A DNA stretch of 64,000 nucleotides from Pseudomonas lurida. Lineage in GTDB: Bacteria > Pseudomonadota > Gammaproteobacteria > Pseudomonadales > Pseudomonadaceae. The stretch covers positions 2,587,501 through 2,651,500 of the forward strand of contig NZ_PDJB01000001.1 in the NCBI RefSeq assembly GCF_002563895.1. Reading direction: 5' to 3'. Each line of letters starts with the position of its first letter. Position 1 is the stretch's first letter. Shown piece by piece: positions 22,960 through 31,745 of this stretch. The notes under the pieces are model-generated. The model saw nothing but the letters and a program-made list of their open reading frames with translations. It searched no databases and was not told where the DNA came from. Both the position numbers and the translations under genes were made by a program.

Positions 22960-23397
22960 ATGAGCTTCGTTGTCGCACGATGGATTGTCGGCGTTTTTAC
23001 CTGCATCAGCATGGTCCACCTGTATTGGGCCGCCGGCGGCAAACTCGGCAGCCTTGCTGCCATCCCCCAACTGCCCGGCGAATTCGCCAGCGGCCCAAGG
23101 CCCGCGTTCAAACCCTCCGCGCTGGGGACCTTCCTCGTGGCAATGGGGCTGGTTGCCATAGCGCTGCTGGTGTGCCTGCGGGCCGGGTTGTACTTCTCGG
23201 CAGTGTCCCATGGGGCGTTGCAATGGGGAATCAGCGCGATTGCCGTGCTGATGTTTGCCAGGGCGATTGGGGATTCGGAATTGGTGGGGTTCTTCAAGAA
23301 GGTAGGTGGGTCGAGATTTGCGAGGTTGGATACGTATTTTTATTCGCCGTTGTGTCTGGTGTTGGGGGTGGGGTTGTTGGTGGTGGCGTGGGGGTGA
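22960..23397 (+). CDS. DUF3995 family membrane protein
   Basis: A 145-residue integral membrane protein with four hydrophobic segments (about 5-25, 57-77, 86-105 and 124-143). It has the DUF3995 features HLYWAAGG near residue 20, ALLVCLRAG near 68, and an RLDTYFYSPLCLVLG stretch near the end. Function unknown. It is transcribed away from the DUF2946 gene. The last 100 bases are GT-rich, and the following region is clearly more AT-rich. Confidence 0.75.
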   Translation: MSFVVARWIVGVFTCISMVHLYWAAGGKLGSLAAIPQLPGEFASGPRPAFKPSALGTFLVAMGLVAIALLVCLRAGLYFSAVSHGALQWGISAIAVLMFARAIGDSELVGFFKKVGGSRFARLDTYFYSPLCLVLGVGLLVVAWG

Positions 23398-23903
23398 GGG
23401 CTGATTGCTCGTTAAGCAGGGCATTCATTATCAAAGGTTGAATGCAGTACCGTGCAATCCCTAGGTTACGTCATCGTTGACAGTGCATCGCTGCGAAATC
23501 TTCTTGGAATGACATAGCCCCTTTACCCTACCCAAGGGTCGCTCGAATAACGCCGTTACTTTCATACGGGGCTTAAATATTTCGAGATCAGCATTTCTAA
23601 AAGAGGGATTTGCACCGTGCTAGCGTTGCCCGTCTGGGGCGATTTTTCTGTCGGGGAGCATGTGTCTGCGCTGGGACATCTCTTTTGCAAGAAGGTTATA
23701 TCAATTATTTCGATCGTTACAATTGCGAAGTTCTCGTTTTGGTTGGGGTGGTCTTAGTCACTGCCCGCATAACTGAATGAGGTAAAAGTTTTAAAGGGTT
23801 TATTATTCAACAAGCCATGTAGTCCGTAAGAGAAGCTATCATTCTTACGCTCGGCGTTGGTTTCGGTCGAATGGCTTTTGTATATCGTAATGGTCGGCTA
23901 GAT
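23398..23903. other. AT-rich region without a convincing gene, behind the Rhs cassettes
   Basis: About 500 bases of lower GC than the flanks. Six-frame reading gives only short frames: a 47-codon plus-strand frame from GTG 23618 with a hydrophobic VISIISIVTIAKF stretch, and a 34-codon minus-strand frame from ATG 23565. Neither has a binding site or family features. Given the decayed cassette next door, it may be further Rhs debris. Confidence 0.5.
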
Positions 23904-24099
23904 TTAAAGTTGGTTCAGCTCGTAGAAGCTTTCCACGTCGGTTTCGTATGGGCAGTAGCTTGCAAAGCAGATCGCCGTCGCTCGAACAGTGAGTAATGGG
24001 ACTTCTTCCTCTATTGTTTCATAGATTGCTATTGCCTGAGCTTTCTCAATATTGGTTGATGCGAGATTTGATGGCGTTAGTAGTGGTGTCGTTATTCAT
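23904..24099 (-). pseudogene. Frameshifted small gene, probably the immunity gene of cassette 3
   Basis: ATG 24099 opens a frame giving MNNDTTTNAIKSRINQ, then meets TGA after one more codon. Shifting frame by one base at that point gives a clean continuation of 47 residues: IEKAQAIAIYETIEEEVPLL, TVRATAICFASYCP, YETDVESFYELNQL, stop at 23904. That frame alone has no usable start. A one-base change would restore a 64-residue acidic protein. It begins six bases after the stop of a truncated toxin tip, the position of an immunity gene. The reading frame logic is direct; the immunity role is inferred. Confidence 0.55.
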
Positions 24100-24105
24100 T
24101 GTGCT

Positions 24106-24258
24106 CTAAGAGCTATTCAAGGAGGATGGTAATAGGATCACGGGTTTTCCGTTTCCTTCAAATGTGAAGTGCGGGCCATTTTTCTTATGGGGCACACATT
24201 GATATGTGTGGAGTTGGCGTGGGTGGCCATTGAGCTGCAGGTGCCTGGGTCCTAGGCT
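24106..24258 (-). pseudogene. Truncated Rhs toxin tip (cassette 3), 50 residues left
   Basis: A start-less frame of 50 codons after an upstream TAG reads SLGPRHLQLNGHPRQLHTYQ, CVPHKKNGPHFTFEG and NGKPVILLPSSLNSS, then stops. The composition and the histidine-rich C-terminal end resemble Rhs/CdiA nuclease tips, but no family is recognised. It starts just downstream of the immunity gene of cassette 1 and ends six bases before the frameshifted gene, so toxin-immunity order is kept. No Rhs core precedes it, so it cannot be expressed as part of an Rhs protein. Confidence 0.5.
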
Positions 24259-24289
24259 CTACTTTTCAATGGTATCTCGCGGGCAGGGA

Positions 24290-24673
24290 CTAAATATATG
24301 TTGGGTGTAAGATGACTCTGGTTGCTCGCACGTCGACGTAACCGGATTCATGAGTGATTGGTCCATCGAGTTCAATAAGGAGTATTGAATCACCAAGTTT
24401 TAACACGGCGCAGTCCTCGTCCGTCACTTCAATCAATTCAGCTGTTATGTGATAAGTGCCGTTTACATGGGTGATCTGTGAAGTCGTATCGAAGGATGGC
24501 GTAACGTTTATCCCCCAAGAAAAAATTTCATCCAAGTCGAGCTCTACATCCTGATCATCACCGATGTTGGGAGGGACCCCTAGCCACGAAGCGGTGCCAC
24601 TTCCGATGGATGAGCGAAAGCTGACTAATAAAGTGTCTGCAGTGGATATTACGTCGGTAATTCGTATTTTCAT
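24290..24673 (-). CDS. Probable immunity protein of displaced cassette 1
   Basis: A 127-residue acidic, strand-rich cytoplasmic protein (MKIRITDVISTADTLLVSFR at the start, later EVTDEDCAVLKLGDSILLIE). ATG 24673 directly follows the stop of the displaced Rhs tip (one base between), the classical toxin/immunity arrangement. No known Imm family was recognised. The gene is intact even though its toxin lacks a start, which fits selection for protection against kin that still use this tip. The role is inferred from position. Confidence 0.65.
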   Translation of the reverse strand: MKIRITDVISTADTLLVSFRSSIGSGTASWLGVPPNIGDDQDVELDLDEIFSWGINVTPSFDTTSQITHVNGTYHITAELIEVTDEDCAVLKLGDSILLIELDGPITHESGYVDVRATRVILHPTYI

Positions 24674-24674
24674 T

Positions 24675-25466
24675 TCACTTCTTCGGTAGTGGAACTCTAA
24701 CGACGGTGTTGTCCACATTCATGGTGTTGGTTTTAAGCTCAAGAGTCCAAGTCTCCTCATGATAGTGATGTCTGCTTGGTTTGCCGTTCATTTCGTGCGA
24801 GCCGTAACGGATGCTTCTTTTAGCGTCACTAGAGACTATCCTGTCACGATCGGGTGTTCCGGTTCGTGGGTTGGTGTTGGTGTGAGGACCTAGCCCTAGG
24901 AATTCATCCCACTTTCGCACGGTTTCTTGGGGTTTGACGGATTTATTGGCGTAGGTTTCGATGTGATATCCCATTTTAGGCGGGATATTTGAGGGCATTG
25001 GGAGGAATGGCTCCCCATCATTGGCGTTTGCCTTCGTTCCTAAATCTTCTGCATCGCTAGTCGGCTTGCACTTGTCGCCACCTGGACAGGGGCTCAATCC
25101 TAGCGGATCAACCCATCCCGTAGGATTGGGCACGTACTGGTAAGCATTGATCCCACCCGCCAACTTCACCGGGTCCGGCGTCAGGTAGCGACCAACATCC
25201 GGATTGTAGTAGCGATGGCGGTTGTAGTGCCGCCCGCTTTCTTGATCGAAATACTGGCCCTGGAAGCGCAGCGGGTTGTCGATTTTCCCGATGTCGAGGC
25301 GGGTGATTTCGCCGTAAGCACGGTAATGCGCAGACCAGACGATCTCGCCATTCGGAGCGGTGAGTTCCTGTGGGGTGCCGAGGTGGTCGAGTTGGTAGTG
25401 GTAGGCCTTGGTGTCCTTTGGACCGAAGCCTTCCAGCAGCGCCAGTTGGCGGAAGGTGTTGGGTTC
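24675..25466 (-). pseudogene. Displaced Rhs C-terminus (cassette 1): last 99 core codons plus toxin tip
   Basis: From 25466 the frame reads nearly the same as the end of the full Rhs core (EPNTFRQLALLEGFGPK, then PDPVKLAGGINAYQY and VDPLGL). From 25466 back to the valine codon at 25169 the distance is identical to that in the full gene, with no indel. An in-frame TAA lies three codons upstream and there is no real start, so it is silent. After DPLGL comes a 139-residue tip unlike that of the full gene, with RYGSHEMNGKPSRHHYHEET near the end, a histidine-rich motif suggesting a nuclease. It can serve as a donor for tip replacement by recombination through the shared core. Confidence 0.75.
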
Positions 25467-25508
25467 ATCTGCTTAGCCGGATGATTATGGAGCTTTCGAA
25501 GCGGTGAT
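25467..25508 (-). repeat. 42-bp direct repeat, copy 1 (cassette 1 boundary)
   Basis: A 42-base segment beginning ATCTGCTTAGCCGGATGATT and containing GGAGCTTTCGAAG. It starts exactly where homology to the Rhs core stops. The second copy (26404-26445) differs at one base and sits at the boundary of cassette 2. Confidence 0.85.
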
Positions 25509-25588
25509 AGGCGTGGGGGGCTCATTCAGTGCGTTTGGGGGAGCCCTCATTCTGCCGAGTGAGCGTTTTGTCGTGGTGGGCAGGCTTT

Positions 25589-25712
25589 TGTGGCGAGTAG
25601 GCTTGCCCTGTGCAGCAGCCCAAGAACTGGCAGTGCTGATTACCTGAAAATCCCCATCGGTCAGACTGGGGCCAATGCGCGGCCCAGTGCTGGGCAAGCC
25701 TGTTCGCCACAG
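25589..25712. repeat. Long palindromic repeat upstream of cassette 1
   Basis: Outer arms TGTGGCGAGTAGGCTTGCCC and GGGCAAGCCTGTTCGCCACA are close inverted complements about 85 bases apart. The interior resembles that of the element at 26468-26603 (GCAGCCC..., TTACCTGAAAA, GGGCC...CGGCCCA). Both lie on the same side of the 42-bp repeat. Confidence 0.75.
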
Positions 25713-25749
25713 GGGAGGGGCGGTGTTGCCTTGGATAGCGGTGTTGGTG

Positions 25750-26166
25750 TTACCAAGTTGACTGATCTTCTAGGCTGGCCTTTTGGAGGTCGTCTTTCCA
25801 ACTTATCTGAGCGAGTTGATGGACATCCTCTAAGAAGCCTTTAGGGTTTTCAAGTTTGTACCATTCTTCTCGAGGCCATGATGTGGCCTCATCTTCATTT
25901 ATATCGAATAAGCCTTGGAAGTCATAACTCTCATCGTTCAGACTATTTTCCAGGGCCTTAATCAAAGCGTATTTGTGCCTGTAAGAAAGGTAGCTTAAAT
26001 TCAAGGCGTGAGTTTTTATGAGAAACGCTCGATCGGTTTTATTGTTTGGGTCGTATTTTTCCAGTTCTAGACCCAGCCCCTGCTCTCGATCATATACATC
26101 AAATACACTAATAAACCATTTTAGGCTAGGGTCAAATGGCTCATTTAAGAATGGGTTTTTCAACAT
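25750..26166 (-). CDS. Probable immunity protein of displaced cassette 2
   Basis: A 138-residue acidic, tryptophan- and tyrosine-rich cytoplasmic protein (LKWFISVFDVYDREQGLGLE, later SYDFQGLFDINEDEATSW). Its ATG shares one base with the stop of the cassette 2 toxin frame (TAATG), indicating coupled translation in the ancestral arrangement. No named immunity family was recognised. The frame is intact. The call rests on position and composition. Confidence 0.65.
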   Translation of the reverse strand: MLKNPFLNEPFDPSLKWFISVFDVYDREQGLGLELEKYDPNNKTDRAFLIKTHALNLSYLSYRHKYALIKALENSLNDESYDFQGLFDINEDEATSWPREEWYKLENPKGFLEDVHQLAQISWKDDLQKASLEDQSTW

Positions 26167-26403
26167 TATCTTTTCTCGACTGGATAAGCAGTGAATGGTC
26201 TGGGCCCATCTTTTTTATCAAATTTCACTTCGAACCAATTTAGATTTTCATTAAGGGCTGGGCTGTCAATGTCTTTTTTGTTAGGGCGATAGCCTCGTCC
26301 TGCTCCGGGTAATTCCAGTTTGAATATGGGAATTTTACTCTGGTCCATCCCGTTGAATGGAGCTAGTCCAAGCGCTTCGCGTGGAGTGTGGCGCCGCGGG
26401 TTT
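26166..26403 (-). pseudogene. Displaced Rhs toxin tip (cassette 2), no core or start
   Basis: After the 42-bp repeat the frame reads NPRRHTPREALGLAPFNGMD and continues to AYPVEKR and stop. EALGLAPF looks like the remains of the DPLGL core/tip junction. About 65 residues follow, rich in charged residues (GAGRGYRPNKKDIDSPALNE), shorter than a usual tip, so it is probably truncated. The open frame continues upstream through the repeat into the palindrome, but with no binding site or sensible start. It overlaps its immunity gene by one base. Confidence 0.6.
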
Positions 26404-26445
26404 ATCTGCTTAGCCGGATGATTATGGAGCTTTCGAAGTGGTGAT
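26404..26445 (-). repeat. 42-bp direct repeat, copy 2 (cassette 2 boundary)
   Basis: Matches 25467-25508 at 41 of 42 positions by eye (T at 26439 for C at 25502). It lies at the upstream edge of the displaced tip of cassette 2, as copy 1 does for cassette 1. Confidence 0.85.
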
Positions 26446-26467
26446 TTTTCGCTGATGGACACCCTTT

Positions 26468-26603
26468 TGTGGTGAGCAGGGTTGCCCTGCTTTGGGCTGC
26501 ACAGCAGCCCCAAAACAGATAAATGCTGCTTTACCTGAAAAAACTCACTGCCTGCACTTGGGCCGCTTCGCGGCCCAACGAAGGGCAAGCCTGCTCGCCA
26601 CAG
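26468..26603. repeat. Long palindromic repeat upstream of cassette 2
   Basis: Outer arms TTGTGGTGAGCAGGGTTGCCC and GGGCAAGCCTGCTCGCCACA enclose inner hairpins such as GGGCCGCTTCGCGGCCC. It has the same organisation as 25589-25712 and sits 22 bases beyond the 42-bp repeat. Together with 26604-26638, this is a 235-base non-coding gap between the active immunity gene and cassette 2. Confidence 0.75.
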
Positions 26604-26638
26604 CGTGAGAAATCAGTGAGGAGTCATATGAAAAAGAC

Positions 26639-27052
26639 TTAGTTGAATTTTTCATAGTCTTGAGCACGCAGTGATGCTAACCATTGTTTGAAAAATTCAA
26701 CCTGTTCTTGTGGGTTACTTGTAAGGTTTTCTTCTTCATAGTCGAACAAGTGGACGATATTTTCGTTAGTTGCTTGCTTACCTAGAGTCATTTCGTATGC
26801 TACAAGGCCTGAACTCATTTGAGATGCCATTCTTGAAGGTTTAACGTTTCGCTTTGCACCTTTGCATAGGAAGGTGATATGGGGGAAGTCTGCCCTGATT
26901 TTTGCAAGGCACATATACATGTCTATACCTTCGTAAATCGTTTTAAAGTTATCAGCTTCTGAAAATACCATAATTAATTTTGCGATGTCATATTTAACAG
27001 TTACTTCTGTTTTTTTATTGTCAATAATTGCAGGTATTTTTTGCGTTTTCAT
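26639..27052 (-). CDS. Immunity protein for the Rhs ADP-ribosyltransferase tip
   Basis: A 137-residue cytoplasmic protein whose ATG 27052 lies one base after the Rhs stop codon (TAA-A-ATG), the expected place for the cognate immunity gene. It begins MKTQKIPAIIDNKKTEVTVK and ends with an acidic helix-rich region (FDYEEENLTSNPQEQVEFFK). It has none of the size or metal motifs of ADP-ribosylglycohydrolases such as Tri1, so it probably blocks the toxin by direct binding. AT-rich like the toxin tip, which suggests that the pair arrived together. Family not recognised. Confidence 0.75.
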   Translation of the reverse strand: MKTQKIPAIIDNKKTEVTVKYDIAKLIMVFSEADNFKTIYEGIDMYMCLAKIRADFPHITFLCKGAKRNVKPSRMASQMSSGLVAYEMTLGKQATNENIVHLFDYEEENLTSNPQEQVEFFKQWLASLRAQDYEKFN

Positions 27053-27053
27053 T

Positions 27054-30000
27054 TTATTTCCTGTTTGGATTTGGAATCGAATAGCCTACATAACTTCCAT
27101 CAGCTTTGACCGGTGTAGCCCCTATGATATCTTCTGGATTTACTTTGTGGTGAATAGCAAATTCTTTTTCTTTGGGGTATGGCGTCTGGTTGCCTAGCTC
27201 TAGGTTTATGTCATGACCCTCAATGCTCTTAAGCGTATACAAGTAACCCTTTTTATCTCCATAGCTAGTTGCAAAGGTAATTCCCACTGCGCGGAGAGGC
27301 GATGTACTAATAAAGTTACTTGGTGGGTCAGCACTGTCAACAGCGTGTAAATATAGATCCTCACTATCGCCTTTGCTTTTGAAGCCGTTTTTAAATACCT
27401 CGTTCGGAGGTGTTTTGTCTCCCCGAAAAAGATATTCCTCATCTCTATTTGAAATCGGAGGGTCGGGTTCTGATTTTTTAATTGATGCTTGTGCTGAAGG
27501 TTCTTGAAAACCAGATGAGGGTTTGCATCCCTTTTCATCTGGACATCCATTTAAGCCCAGCGGATCAACCCATCCCGTAGGATTAGGCACGTACTGGTAA
27601 GCATTGATCCCACCCGCCAACTTCACCGGGTCCGGCGTCAGGTAACGACCAACATCCGGATTGTAGTAGCGATGGCGGTTGTAGTGCAGCCCGCTTTCTT
27701 GATCGAAATACTGGCCCTGGAAGCGCAGAGGGTTGTCGATTTTCCCGATGTCGAGACGGCTGATTTCGCCGTAAGCACGGTAATGCGCAGACCAGACGAT
27801 CTCGCCATTCGGAGCGGTGAGTTCCTGCGGGGTGCCAAGGTGGTCGAGTTGGTAGTGGTAGGCCTTGGTTTCCTTTGGGCCGAAGCCTTCCAGCAGCGCC
27901 AGCGGGCGGAAGGTGTTGGGTTCGTAGAGGTAGCTGCGGTGGCGGTTCGCGTGGTGTTCGGCGATGAGTGTGTCGCCTCGCCAGAAGAACTCGGTCGTAA
28001 TGCCATCGACGGTTTTGCTGATTCGCCGCCCAAACGGGTCGTAGCGGTAGCTGGCGGTTTGGCCGTTGGGCGTCTTAATGCCAATCAGGCGATGCTGGCA
28101 GTCGTAGTGGTATTCGGTGACGAGTTGATGGCCTTTGCCGCGGCGTTCGCGGATCAGGTTGCCGTAGGCGTCGTAGTCGTAATGGTGGTCACCCTGGATC
28201 ATCAGGCGATTGCCGGCGACGATATCGGGGCCGGGGCGGTTTTGCATGAGCAGGTTGCCGGCCGGGTCATGGCCGAAGCGTTCTTGCTCGTCTTGGGTGT
28301 GGTCGGCGCGGGTGAGGCGGCTGAGTGGGTCGTAGTGGTAGCGGTGTTCGCCTTTGCGGGTGTCGAGCAGGCGGGTGAGGTTGCTGGATTTGTCGTAGTC
28401 GTAATGACGGCGGTATAGCGGGCCTTCGGCGTCGTTGATGCTCTGGCTGAGCAGGCGTCCCTGGTGGTCGTGTTGGTAGTGGCTGAGCAGTTGACCTTGT
28501 TGGCGTTGCTGTTCGCGACCGGCAGTAAAGAGGTGCGAGGTGAGTACTGCGCCGTTCAGTTCGACGGTGGCGAGGTGACCGCCTTTGGCGTGGTTGAAGG
28601 TGAGACGGTTGTTGTCCGGCAGGCGTAGTGTGTGAAGGTGGCCGCAAGCGTCGTAGCCGTAGCGCAGGGTGCCCCAGCCTTGGTGTTCGGCGGTGAGGCG
28701 GTTTTGGACGTCGTATTCATAGGTCAGGGCCCAGTGGCCGTCGTCGACGCTTAGGAGATTGCCCTGGCGATCGTAGGCATAGTCGACGGCACCACCATCA
28801 GGCAGGGTTTTTCTTACGAGTCGACTGGCATGGTCGCGCTCATAGCGAGTGACCAGCCGACTACCGTCATCACCGTGTTCAGTCTTTTCCTGCAGGTTGC
28901 CGTTGAGGTCGTAGACGTAAGCCGTACGCTGGCCGTCAAACCCGGTTTCCTGCTGGATCAGGCCATTGCTGTGGTACTGAAGCCGGTAGGTCTCGCCGAC
29001 CTCGTTTTCGATCTCGGTCAGTAGCAGCCGAACGTTGTCGTAGCGGTACTTGACCTGGCTGCCATCGGCGTTGATGCGGCGGCTGATCAGGTGCAGGCCG
29101 TCGGCGTATTCGTAGCGGGTGACGTTCCCCAGTTCATCGCGTTCGGAAGTGATTTTTCCGTAAGCGTTGTAGCTGTATTCCCTGCACGCACCGCCCGGTA
29201 GCACCACGCGGATCAACCGACCCACGCTGTCCCACTGATGTTGGGTCAGCGCACCATGCTCATCCTCACGCGCAACTTGTCGTCCGAGATCGTCATAGCG
29301 ATAGCGCTTGATTCCACCATTGGGCAACTGCTCCTCAAGCAACTGCCCACGTTCATTCCACACCAGGCGCTGACAACTGTGATCCGGGTACCAAACGCCA
29401 ACCAGCTGCCCATATTGGTTGTAGCTGTAGTCAGTAGCGTTGCCGTCAGGATCGGTCCTACGCGTAACATCGCCCTGGTCATTCCGCTCGTATTTCCAGA
29501 CTGCTTCACCACGCCGCACAACCCGTACGAATCCGTTGTCATGCTCGTAGGTCGTCGGCTCGTCATCTCCCGGAAACAACGCCACCAGGCGTCCCGCTTC
29601 GTCGTATTGATACGCCGTGATCGCACCGAGAGGATCCTGCTCAACCGTCAGCCGGCCTTTGTCATCGTAGGACTTGAAGTGCTCGGCCCCCTCCGGATCC
29701 ACCCGCTGCACCAGCCGCGCCCGCTGGTCATGCACGTAGACTTCCTGGCTGCCGTCGGCGTTAAACACCGTGACCTGCCCGTTGTCATCCCAGGCATACC
29801 GCGTGTCCATCTGCGAGAAACTCGCCCAATGCCGGACACACCGCGCCGCCTTGCCAGCCCGTTCCCACTCCCAATAGAAACTCGCCCCACCGGCCAATCC
29901 ACGCTCAAGAATCACGTGCTGAGCGTCGTACCGATAAACCTCGCTTTCACCGACCGCATTGGTTGCCGAAATCAGTCGCCCAGCGTCGTCATAGGCGTAG

Positions 30001-31745
30001 GAAACGACGGTCTGCTCCGTCACCCATTCAAAAGGCTCAAGGTCTTTGGCCCGATGAATCTGGTAGTCCACCGCCACGATCCGGCTCGAGGCATAGCGCA
30101 AAAACAGCGAACGCCCCACGCCGTTATCCAGGCGCTCAATGCGCCCCAGAACATCCCGGCAAATGCGCAGCCGGTTGTCATACGCATCGCTGATCGCCGT
30201 CAGCACACCGTCGCGAAAGTGGTAGAAACGTGACGACTGAGCCAGCACCAGTTCATCAGGCAGCGACCCCAAGTAGACCGCTGCTTCGGCCAGGCTATTG
30301 GTGATTGCAGGCCGAGAAACCGTGGGCAAGGGCAGGGTGGTCGAGCGGTTTTCGTGATCGGTCCACACCACTGAGTCGCCGGAAACATTCAGCCGATGCG
30401 CCAGCGAGTGACTCCAGCCAAACCCCAACCCGCAGTCCACTTCCACTGCACTGGTGCGGTACAAGCGTGTCCACTCAAACGGCAGAATCCCGTCCAGCGT
30501 CCCATCGGTCAGGGTCAGCAGTTCCTCGCCCGTGACCATCGACACCGGGCAACCGTTCGTGGCGGTTTTTTCCGAAGACGCAGCGGCATCCCCATTGGGA
30601 TTGCGAGCAGTAGACGGCACGTCATCCACGTGCTCTTTCTGCTTCAGCACCGCGTTCTGCCGCGCCTTCCAGCGCATTTGCATCGTGCCTTGCCTGAGCC
30701 CGCCAACCACGCCGCGAACCGCGACCGCCTTGTAGCGATCCACCGCCTGCATGAACGTCGTCAGAATCGCCAAAAGGCCCCTGACAAATCCCACCGCCAC
30801 ATCAAGAATCCGTGATCCGTACTTGACCAACCGCAAGCTCAAATACGCCACACCCGCTGCTGGCAAGGCGATGGTCAACACCGCGCCAATCACCAGGTCA
30901 ATCAGCAGCGATACCATGAACCCAGCCGCCACTTCGGCAATTTCGTCGGGGGGCAATGCGTCCAGCCAGATCATCGCTGTGCGCAGCAACAGGTACAGCG
31001 CGGCTTCATCACTGGCGAGTAACATCGCCTGTTCCATGACCTTGGGTGCAGCGGTGGCGATTTGCGCCAATTCGGCGGCTGCGGCGCCCAACTGCTCGAC
31101 GTAGTTCAGCGGGGCTTCAAGAATCGCCTGGACCTGCTTGATGCTGTCCCACACTTCGCGAATCGCCGCCCAGCTGCCTGCCAATACGCCGCTGCCAATC
31201 GCGCTGGCGGTTGACCGCTCCCAGTGCGGTTTAAAGCCAGACCACTGTGCCCGGAGCCACTGCTCCAAGTCCCCCATCAGTCCGGCGTAAGAGGCAAACA
31301 AAGCCTCGACCTGTTCCTCGGACACTTCGCCCTGCACCCGCACCTGATAGCGCCTGCCTGCCGCGCAGTGGTGGGAACCCTGACCCCGTTCATCCAGCAT
31401 CACCACAGTGGAAATGCCGTCATCCAGGTCGATGACCTCCACCGGGATATTGCCAATCGGCACGTCGTACACCGACTCGAACAGGCTTTCGATCTTCAGT
31501 TCACCGCCCATCGGGCACTGGGTCACGGTCGCAAAGTCAGCATCTGAAATGCTTGCCGAACGCTGCGAATCCCCGGCCCGCAACACCCGGTCCATCCCCA
31601 GCAACGACGGCATGTCCAGCCCATGGCTGACCGAATCCAGCGCACGCGAATACCACGCAGCCATCTGCTGGCGATACATCACCAGGCTTTGATGAAAGCC
31701 ATCCAGTTCATGGTCGATCAGGGCAATGTGGGCAGCGTGGGTCAT
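27054..31745 (-). CDS. Rhs polymorphic toxin with ADP-ribosyltransferase tip
   Basis: A 1563-residue Rhs protein. The N-terminal 350 residues include two or more hydrophobic segments (about 275-345, e.g. LIDLVIGAVLTIALPAAGVA). A DUF6531-type segment starts near 385 (NGCPVSMVTGEELLTLTDGT), then YD repeats form the shell, and the core ends with DPLGL near 1398. The 165-residue tip carries an R-S-E ADP-ribosyltransferase pattern: YLFRGD (Arg1441), FISTS (1478-1482) and KEKE (Glu1526/Glu1528), ordered as in cholera and heat-labile enterotoxin A chains. ATG 31745 is chosen; a TTG eight codons earlier lacks a binding site. No PAAR motif or VgrG gene is adjacent, so the delivery route is unclear, though type VI secretion is usual. 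Confidence 0.88.
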   Translation of the reverse strand: MTHAAHIALIDHELDGFHQSLVMYRQQMAAWYSRALDSVSHGLDMPSLLGMDRVLRAGDSQRSASISDADFATVTQCPMGGELKIESLFESVYDVPIGNIPVEVIDLDDGISTVVMLDERGQGSHHCAAGRRYQVRVQGEVSEEQVEALFASYAGLMGDLEQWLRAQWSGFKPHWERSTASAIGSGVLAGSWAAIREVWDSIKQVQAILEAPLNYVEQLGAAAAELAQIATAAPKVMEQAMLLASDEAALYLLLRTAMIWLDALPPDEIAEVAAGFMVSLLIDLVIGAVLTIALPAAGVAYLSLRLVKYGSRILDVAVGFVRGLLAILTTFMQAVDRYKAVAVRGVVGGLRQGTMQMRWKARQNAVLKQKEHVDDVPSTARNPNGDAAASSEKTATNGCPVSMVTGEELLTLTDGTLDGILPFEWTRLYRTSAVEVDCGLGFGWSHSLAHRLNVSGDSVVWTDHENRSTTLPLPTVSRPAITNSLAEAAVYLGSLPDELVLAQSSRFYHFRDGVLTAISDAYDNRLRICRDVLGRIERLDNGVGRSLFLRYASSRIVAVDYQIHRAKDLEPFEWVTEQTVVSYAYDDAGRLISATNAVGESEVYRYDAQHVILERGLAGGASFYWEWERAGKAARCVRHWASFSQMDTRYAWDDNGQVTVFNADGSQEVYVHDQRARLVQRVDPEGAEHFKSYDDKGRLTVEQDPLGAITAYQYDEAGRLVALFPGDDEPTTYEHDNGFVRVVRRGEAVWKYERNDQGDVTRRTDPDGNATDYSYNQYGQLVGVWYPDHSCQRLVWNERGQLLEEQLPNGGIKRYRYDDLGRQVAREDEHGALTQHQWDSVGRLIRVVLPGGACREYSYNAYGKITSERDELGNVTRYEYADGLHLISRRINADGSQVKYRYDNVRLLLTEIENEVGETYRLQYHSNGLIQQETGFDGQRTAYVYDLNGNLQEKTEHGDDGSRLVTRYERDHASRLVRKTLPDGGAVDYAYDRQGNLLSVDDGHWALTYEYDVQNRLTAEHQGWGTLRYGYDACGHLHTLRLPDNNRLTFNHAKGGHLATVELNGAVLTSHLFTAGREQQRQQGQLLSHYQHDHQGRLLSQSINDAEGPLYRRHYDYDKSSNLTRLLDTRKGEHRYHYDPLSRLTRADHTQDEQERFGHDPAGNLLMQNRPGPDIVAGNRLMIQGDHHYDYDAYGNLIRERRGKGHQLVTEYHYDCQHRLIGIKTPNGQTASYRYDPFGRRISKTVDGITTEFFWRGDTLIAEHHANRHRSYLYEPNTFRPLALLEGFGPKETKAYHYQLDHLGTPQELTAPNGEIVWSAHYRAYGEISRLDIGKIDNPLRFQGQYFDQESGLHYNRHRYYNPDVGRYLTPDPVKLAGGINAYQYVPNPTGWVDPLGLNGCPDEKGCKPSSGFQEPSAQASIKKSEPDPPISNRDEEYLFRGDKTPPNEVFKNGFKSKGDSEDLYLHAVDSADPPSNFISTSPLRAVGITFATSYGDKKGYLYTLKSIEGHDINLELGNQTPYPKEKEFAIHHKVNPEDIIGATPVKADGSYVGYSIPNPNRK

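Follow-up and report, generated by a model that had tools for sequence, protein, structure and literature searches.

Organization of the Rhs locus

The window, a stretch of 64,000 nucleotides, comes from a 6.31-Mb genome assembled as a single contig. It contains an Rhs locus, which we call locus A, that reads on the (−) strand from a full rhs gene through its immunity gene, displaced cassette 2, displaced cassette 1 and a set of broken relics that extends to about position 23464. The rhs gene (31769–27054, (−) strand) is intact, with an open frame of 1,571 amino acids from a TTG codon and an ATG at 31745. It is composed of a locus-specific N-terminal part, a YD-repeat core with a DPXG-type core end and, at about 27054–27548, a TreX-like tip that is a predicted ADP-ribosyltransferase. 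The Rhs protein has RHS, DUF6531 and Scabin-like matches in Pfam, and a domain search found no PAAR domain within it; among T6SS genes, the genome has two Hcp genes. The TriX-like immunity gene of the active tip follows as an open frame at 27052–26639 on the (−) strand. At the other end of the array, a convergent DUF3995 gene (22960–23397, (+) strand) forms the conserved downstream flank of locus A.

The active tip matches the solved toxin TreX (PDB 8s2m) with an E value of 1.1e-30 over residues 37–162 of 163, and its immunity protein matches solved TriX from the same entry (E = 1.4e-22, residues 42–129 of 137). TreX is described in the accessible text of PMC12605009 as an ADP-ribosyltransferase of Xenorhabdus bovienii that was employed in an interbacterial killing assay. 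The pair in the window resembles TreX and TriX by sequence, and its activity is predicted from that likeness. In the same genome, locus C (L015 5652–6672) carries a broken, displaced relic of a TreX-like tip and a TriX-like immunity gene, which match the active pair of the window at 52% over 99 aa and at 41%, respectively.

From about nucleotide 1200 onward, the core of the rhs gene shares 92% identity or more with the other three rhs genes of the same family in this genome in 41 of 45 windowed comparisons, and it is 70–96% identical to the genes of relatives that were compared. The first 1,000 nt are 39–52% identical to the other rhs genes of this family in the genome and 76–91% identical to locus-A orthologues. 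The rhs cores of the genome are homogenised and can act as a left recombination arm. Because of this homogenisation between loci, a left crossover cannot be placed.

The displaced cassettes

An initial annotation described one full Rhs gene and immunity gene followed by cassettes in the same orientation and toxin–immunity order, which holds for cassettes 2 and 1 with their open frames. It also described decay that increases with distance from the rhs gene. This is not what we observe, since the order is 2, 1, 3 and cassette 1 is longer than cassette 2, which lies closest to the gene.

The toxin tip of cassette 2 (26383–26166, (−) strand) is truncated at its 5' end and coreless, and matches the C-terminal half of the full tip at L055 at 66% over 71 aa. 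At the junction, REALGLAPFNG of the window aligns with RKSLGLDPFNG inside the full-length L055 tip. The EALGL of cassette 2 therefore lies within a tip, so that only the C-terminal half of the toxin is present, with no core, and the LGL read earlier as a remnant of the core/tip boundary is not the DPLGL junction. The truncation of tip 2 coincides with the junction of a gene stub that is described below. Immunity gene 2 (26166–25750, (−) strand) has an intact frame and matches, at 77%, the immunity gene beside the M20 peptidase gene at locus B of genome G119.

Cassette 1 begins with an rhs core remnant (25466–25095, (−) strand) that runs from EPNTF to DPLGL and shares 96% identity with the active core across 371 nt; it comprises 124 codons, where 99 had been annotated. 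The open frame of tip 1 (25094–24675, (−) strand), whose first start codons sit within the core remnant, matches the active locus-A tip of G219 at 81% over 134 aa. Immunity gene 1 (24673–24290, (−) strand), also an intact frame, matches imm1 at locus A of G219 at 67%. Of cassette 3, the annotated broken immunity gene is confirmed as a relic, larger than first described (24095–23757, (−) strand), with a match of 45% over 60 aa (E = 5e-14) to a gene adjoining the Rhs gene at locus A of G197. At an E threshold of 0.01, a search of A and B loci gave no match for the 50-residue tip proposed for this cassette. A further relic of orphan genes (23753–23464, (−) strand) matches an orphan gene at G175 locus A (58% over 33 aa, E = 5e-6) and, weakly, G121 locus A (E = 0.003). 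A core fragment before the displaced tip is present in cassette 1, absent in cassette 2 and unrecognisable in cassette 3.

For tip 1, immunity protein 1, the tip piece of cassette 2 and immunity protein 2, no Pfam or NCBIfam family rose above its cut-off. Pfam likewise gave nothing above cut-off for the full-length tip 2 of L055 or for tip 1 and imm1 of G360. In a search for solved relatives, the best E value was 0.96 for tip 1 and 0.14 for immunity protein 2, and full tip 2 had no match; we take these as chance. RIP, DUF3919 and OsmC/YcaO were considered as identities for the immunity proteins and set aside as weak matches below curated cut-offs. The spacers behind the immunity genes contain similar intergenic repeats (25574–25712 and 26453–26603), which we take to be REP-like. 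Such shared spacers could also aid recombination.

M20 peptidase stubs link locus A to locus B

Cassettes 2 and 1 are each preceded by a stub of the 3' end of an M20 peptidase gene, a feature that the initial annotation overlooked. Both stubs lie in M20 sense on the (+) strand: stub 2 (26384–26445) is about 61 nt long and precedes cassette 2, and stub 1 (25467–25508), which precedes cassette 1, has about 41 nt together with 5 nt (AACCC) shared at the junction. When the 6.3 Mb were searched for a 23-nt stub motif with three mismatches permitted, four copies were recovered, all of them exact, and a reversed control pattern was recovered zero times. This recurrence is far beyond chance. Two of the copies are those at locus A, and the other two are at a second rhs locus, locus B, about 950 kb away. 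There, an intact M20 peptidase gene in convergent orientation (L016 6588–7856, assigned by Pfam) ends in one copy, and the other precedes a displaced cassette that belongs to locus B itself.

The similarity between the two loci around stub 2 is not confined to the peptidase gene, and extends beyond it into the native M20 spacer. Across the spacer, stub 2 and the start of tip 2, loci A and B are identical at 283 of 298 nt, and within this region positions 26520–26341 of the window are identical at 179 of 180 nt. The cassettes that flank this shared block differ between the loci, those on the left being unrelated and those on the right having immunity proteins that are only 45% alike. These sequence relations and junctions are direct observations. 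A longer correspondence is seen with locus B of G322, where the rhs gene is cut by a contig end: from 27700 to about 26385, the window is colinear with this locus in the order core, tip, immunity gene, spacer and M20 gene, at 1,187 of 1,315 aligned nt (90%), and the colinearity stops at the end of stub 2. The TreX-like tip of G322 locus B is 94.5% identical to the active tip over 164 aa, and the TriX-like immunity gene beside its M20 gene is 90% identical to that of the window. On this evidence, the active cassette is of the locus-B type. Because both junctions carry the M20 3' end that marks locus B, the active pair and the first displaced cassette of locus A were likely copied from an rhs locus of this type.

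Loci A and B in related genomes

To place these relations in a wider context, we surveyed 398 genomes of the same genus, drawn as one per species. A pattern search found the M20 end in 21 of the 398, with more than one copy only in the genome of the window. The locus A set holds 61 loci, including that of the window, with a full-length DUF3995 match of at least 83% identity, from 192 genomes with any DUF3995 match; it leaves out G359 (92%, partial match) and more distant genomes, and several of its members are cut by contig ends (for example, L149, L150, L154, L161 and L175). The locus B set holds 32 loci, that of the window's genome and 31 others, in which the layout is rhs, cassettes and M20 gene, with GGDEF and LysE genes beyond. 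Some A and B loci hold no rhs gene; an rhs core is present at 29 of the 61 A loci. At locus A of G140 and G305 (L082 and L089), the DUF3995 gene lies about 1.1 kb and 0.3 kb, respectively, from the TonB receptor gene of the far side, with no rhs between them; these are likely the empty site of locus A.

Tip and immunity families are distributed unevenly between the loci. Tip 1 and imm1 occur at seven of the 61 A loci and at none of the 32 B loci, and four immunity families of locus B (TriX-like, CdiI_2-like, imm2 and immC) occur at 21 of the 32 B loci and at five A loci. M20 stubs are found at three of these five A loci versus none of the 24 other rhs-bearing A loci (one-sided Fisher p = 0.003). 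Against a copying of cassettes into locus A, the A loci of G158 and G090 carry B-family immunity genes with no stub, and both are cut by contig ends.

The displaced tips are found in active position elsewhere: tip 1 in G219 and G373, the tip 2 family in G119 and G175, and the TreX-like tip in G322. Tips 1 and 2 and the immunity relic of cassette 3 all have Rhs-linked homologues in relatives. The earlier proposal that the locus records successive tip changes is borne out to this extent, whereas the simple row built up within one locus is contradicted by the locus-B flank. Because an unbroken rhs frame with an A-type N-terminus terminates in tip 1 at locus A of two relatives, G219 and G373, this tip is likely the old resident of locus A, since displaced. 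In G360, tip 1 is present at locus A in a shorter open frame (1,146 codons). A further point against the copying of cassettes into locus A is that in G373 about 7.6 kb of other DNA separates imm1 from the DUF3995 gene. Within this set of one genome per species, no pair of strains representing the states before and after the event was found.

Recurrence of the stubs in other genomes

M20 stubs with other junctions are present in at least five other genomes, giving at least six junction types in all at three loci (A, B and E); these are lower bounds, as they come from a blastn search with the M20 end in which at most two candidates per genome were scored. The inner ends of the stubs differ, at about 41, 61, 67, 76, 116 and 122 nt. 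In G175 and G209 (P. reactans C5002), the locus-A stub leads into sequence upstream of a small orphan gene, which we take as immunity-like. At a third rhs locus, locus E, G031 and G136 share one stub junction, followed by a relative of the active E immunity gene of the window's genome (60% and 87% identical). Locus E of G031 also has a transposase-like frame (L135 8796–9638), IS5-like by reading of its translation, between the Rhs gene and a truncated copy of tipC/immC. At locus B of G350, the stub lies inside the array and is followed by what reads as a core end and by a truncated RNase A-type tip. Between its Rhs and M20 genes, this array (L058 1014–4564) carries six immunity genes, of which three are TriX-like, and the toxins behind the first pair are truncated or were not found. 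G350 is the only one of the 31 other B loci with an internal stub, a result that speaks against the copying of cassettes and indicates that most B arrays grew otherwise or have lost the trace.

We compared each stub with the M20 genes of the 32 B loci. For all three stubs of the window's genome, the nearest M20 gene is the genome's own. The stubs of G136, G350, G209 and G031 have their own M20 gene tied with those of other species. In G175, the own M20 gene ranks 16 of 32 and the nearest is that of the window's genome; the locus-A immunity protein of G175 is also 95% identical to the locus-B one of the window's genome. The G175 stub and the tied stubs imply that the donors may be other strains or species and not the same chromosome, and transfers may, judging from these similarities, happen both within and between species.

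The DUF3995 ends of the 61 A loci found no match at the 32 B loci or at the five C, D and E loci examined. The end of the NUDIX gene of locus C matched only itself, and the end of the HU gene of locus D matched itself and three segments of 20–39 nt that we take as chance. The presence of M20 ends at loci A and E and of no DUF3995 ends at the loci examined suggests a direction of transfer.

Origin of the cassettes

Our preferred interpretation, to which we assign a probability of about 0.8, is that cassettes of locus B entered locus A by homologous recombination in the shared core on one side and an illegitimate join on the other, with the end of the donor's flanking gene left behind as a label. 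The direction, the order of events and the recombination route are what we infer from the junctions. Donor DNA consisting of the 3' part of a core, a tip, an immunity gene, a spacer and the M20 3' end would pair with the resident rhs core, and its right-hand end would join illegitimately, to the old core at stub 1 and inside tip 2 at stub 2; elsewhere, the right-hand joins would have hit old tips or small orphan genes. The resident tip 1 would be pushed downstream together with its immunity gene. As to order, tip 1 would first have been the active tip of locus A, with relics downstream of it; the arrival at the core remnant of a B-type array that ends in M20 would have followed, and the front cassette would have been exchanged at A or at B, because stub 2 is common to both loci and the cassette preceding it is not.

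Homology-facilitated illegitimate recombination of this kind has been proposed for Vibrio cholerae arrays and for Acinetobacter cdi loci, according to the accessible text of PMC5361080 and PMC6336857. At the loci described here, the homologous arm on one side is the near-identical core shared among rhs genes of the same family, and the junction on the other side is non-homologous and different each time, with at least six types. Short microhomology is expected at junctions formed in this way. At the stub 1 junction, the only shared bases are AACCC, with a mismatch beside them.

The final order at stub 1, M20 followed by core, would be the same if a circle of core, tip, immunity gene and M20 stub had been released from a B array and integrated through a single crossover within the resident core. 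Such a circular intermediate is already part of a published model (Jackson et al. 2009; PMC2935791, as far as its accessible text goes), and the cassette 2' unit at locus B lies between two direct 61-nt M20 repeats that would be able to recombine. However, insertion of a circle predicts a core fragment before every displaced tip, whereas at stub 2 the M20 end runs directly into a tip and at locus A of G175 and G209 it is joined to sequence upstream of a small orphan gene, so we regard this route as unlikely. The same 61-nt direct repeats flanking the locus-B cassette could instead be the attL and attR of a small mobile element that uses the M20 3' end as its attachment site. Integrative elements often use the 3' ends of genes. 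The inner ends of the stubs are unequal, however, and the homology extends past the end of the gene into the native M20 spacer; moreover, as judged from the frame listing alone, the A and B intervals contain only cassette frames. Site-specific integration is thus very improbable, and the unequal inner ends led us to drop the idea of an att site.

A purely local succession, in which tips entered locus A from outside one by one with decay rising with distance, would be in keeping with the toxin–immunity order and common orientation and with the fact that the relics toward DUF3995 are the most broken. It leaves the two M20 stubs, the near-identical A/B block and the locus preference of the tip families unexplained, and we give it hardly any credence. 

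A further reading, in which the stub is more than a scar, is tentative; we hold it to be possible rather than probable. The M20 stub (41–122 nt) and its spacer might have become a portable right-hand homology arm that, with the rhs core, would permit a two-armed, recombinase-free exchange, locus B being a genus-wide library and loci A and E receivers. We raise this because the A/B block at stub 2, with 179 of 180 nt identical, has differing cassettes on either side, as repeated exchange would leave.

Relation to known systems

C-terminal displacement in Rhs loci is already known, and the inter-locus scar is the part for which we found no earlier description in the literature searched. In the accessible text of Jackson et al. 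(2009, PMC2935791), as in the window, a full rhs gene is followed by displaced pieces of core, tip and immunity gene, and the core acts as a recombination arm; their model invokes a circle and displaced tips keep their core, whereas in the window the junction itself records the type of donor locus, and one displaced tip is coreless. The T6SS arrays of V. cholerae (Kirchberger et al. 2017, PMC5361080, accessible text) are alike in their homologous anchor, illegitimate join and retention of the old immunity gene downstream. That route was proposed from gene order, whereas here, in several species, scars of a donor flank connect the cassette with a different locus of the chromosome. Orphan regions of Acinetobacter cdi loci likewise contain remnants displaced stepwise, and islands at one site are flanked by border genes of another; these are CDI rather than Rhs loci, and the available portion of the report ascribes flank capture to island excision (PMC6336857). 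Between main and orphan Rhs of Salmonella, recombination in a shared core also changes the toxin tip, but, in the part of PMC3967940 that was accessible, exchange takes place within one locus and the orphan keeps its core, unlike in the window.

No description of a donor-flank gene stub between Rhs cassettes was found in the accessible full-text literature, a scope from which subscription works mostly fall outside. The accessible text of PMC2935791, PMC5727410, PMC8125069, PMC5361080, PMC10539506, PMC6336857, PMC3967940 and PMC11751169 contains no such stub, the nearest case being the flank genes of Acinetobacter cdi. The origin of new Rhs tips had been open, and the 2009 study, as far as its text was accessible, found little to indicate that they arise within the same genome (PMC2935791). 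A donor-gene stub at a junction provides a readable address: it names the type of the donor locus and locates the right-hand breakpoint with a precision of a few bases. It also suggests how bacteria could re-arm one toxin locus from another, and the same reading is applicable to any polymorphic-toxin locus with a conserved neighbour gene.

Selection and the state of the displaced cassettes

The initial annotation held that immunity genes 1 and 2 had been kept intact by selection. Pairwise dN/dS ratios between the window and G219 are 0.32 for imm1 and 0.21 for tip 1, and those between the window and G119 are 0.05 for imm2, where dS is near saturation, and 0.19 for the truncated tip 2. With ratios below 1 for displaced tips and immunity genes alike, these values give no evidence that only the immunity genes are being preserved, and the two classes are not separated by this measure. 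An orphan Rhs immunity protein is protective in Serratia (PMC10539506, accessible text), and by analogy protection by the orphan immunity genes is plausible here too.

A role as silent donor for tip replacement, which the initial annotation gave as established for Rhs loci, is possible for tip 1, with 124 core codons left. Cassette 2 cannot act as a silent donor through its core, of which none is left. In three genomes (L049 8772–9056, L058 1385–1693 and L060 7157–7498), the truncated toxin of the tip 2 family persists as a small open frame of similar form whose in-frame ATG (MQLSTQF) occupies the same position each time, and this frame may encode a standalone small protein.
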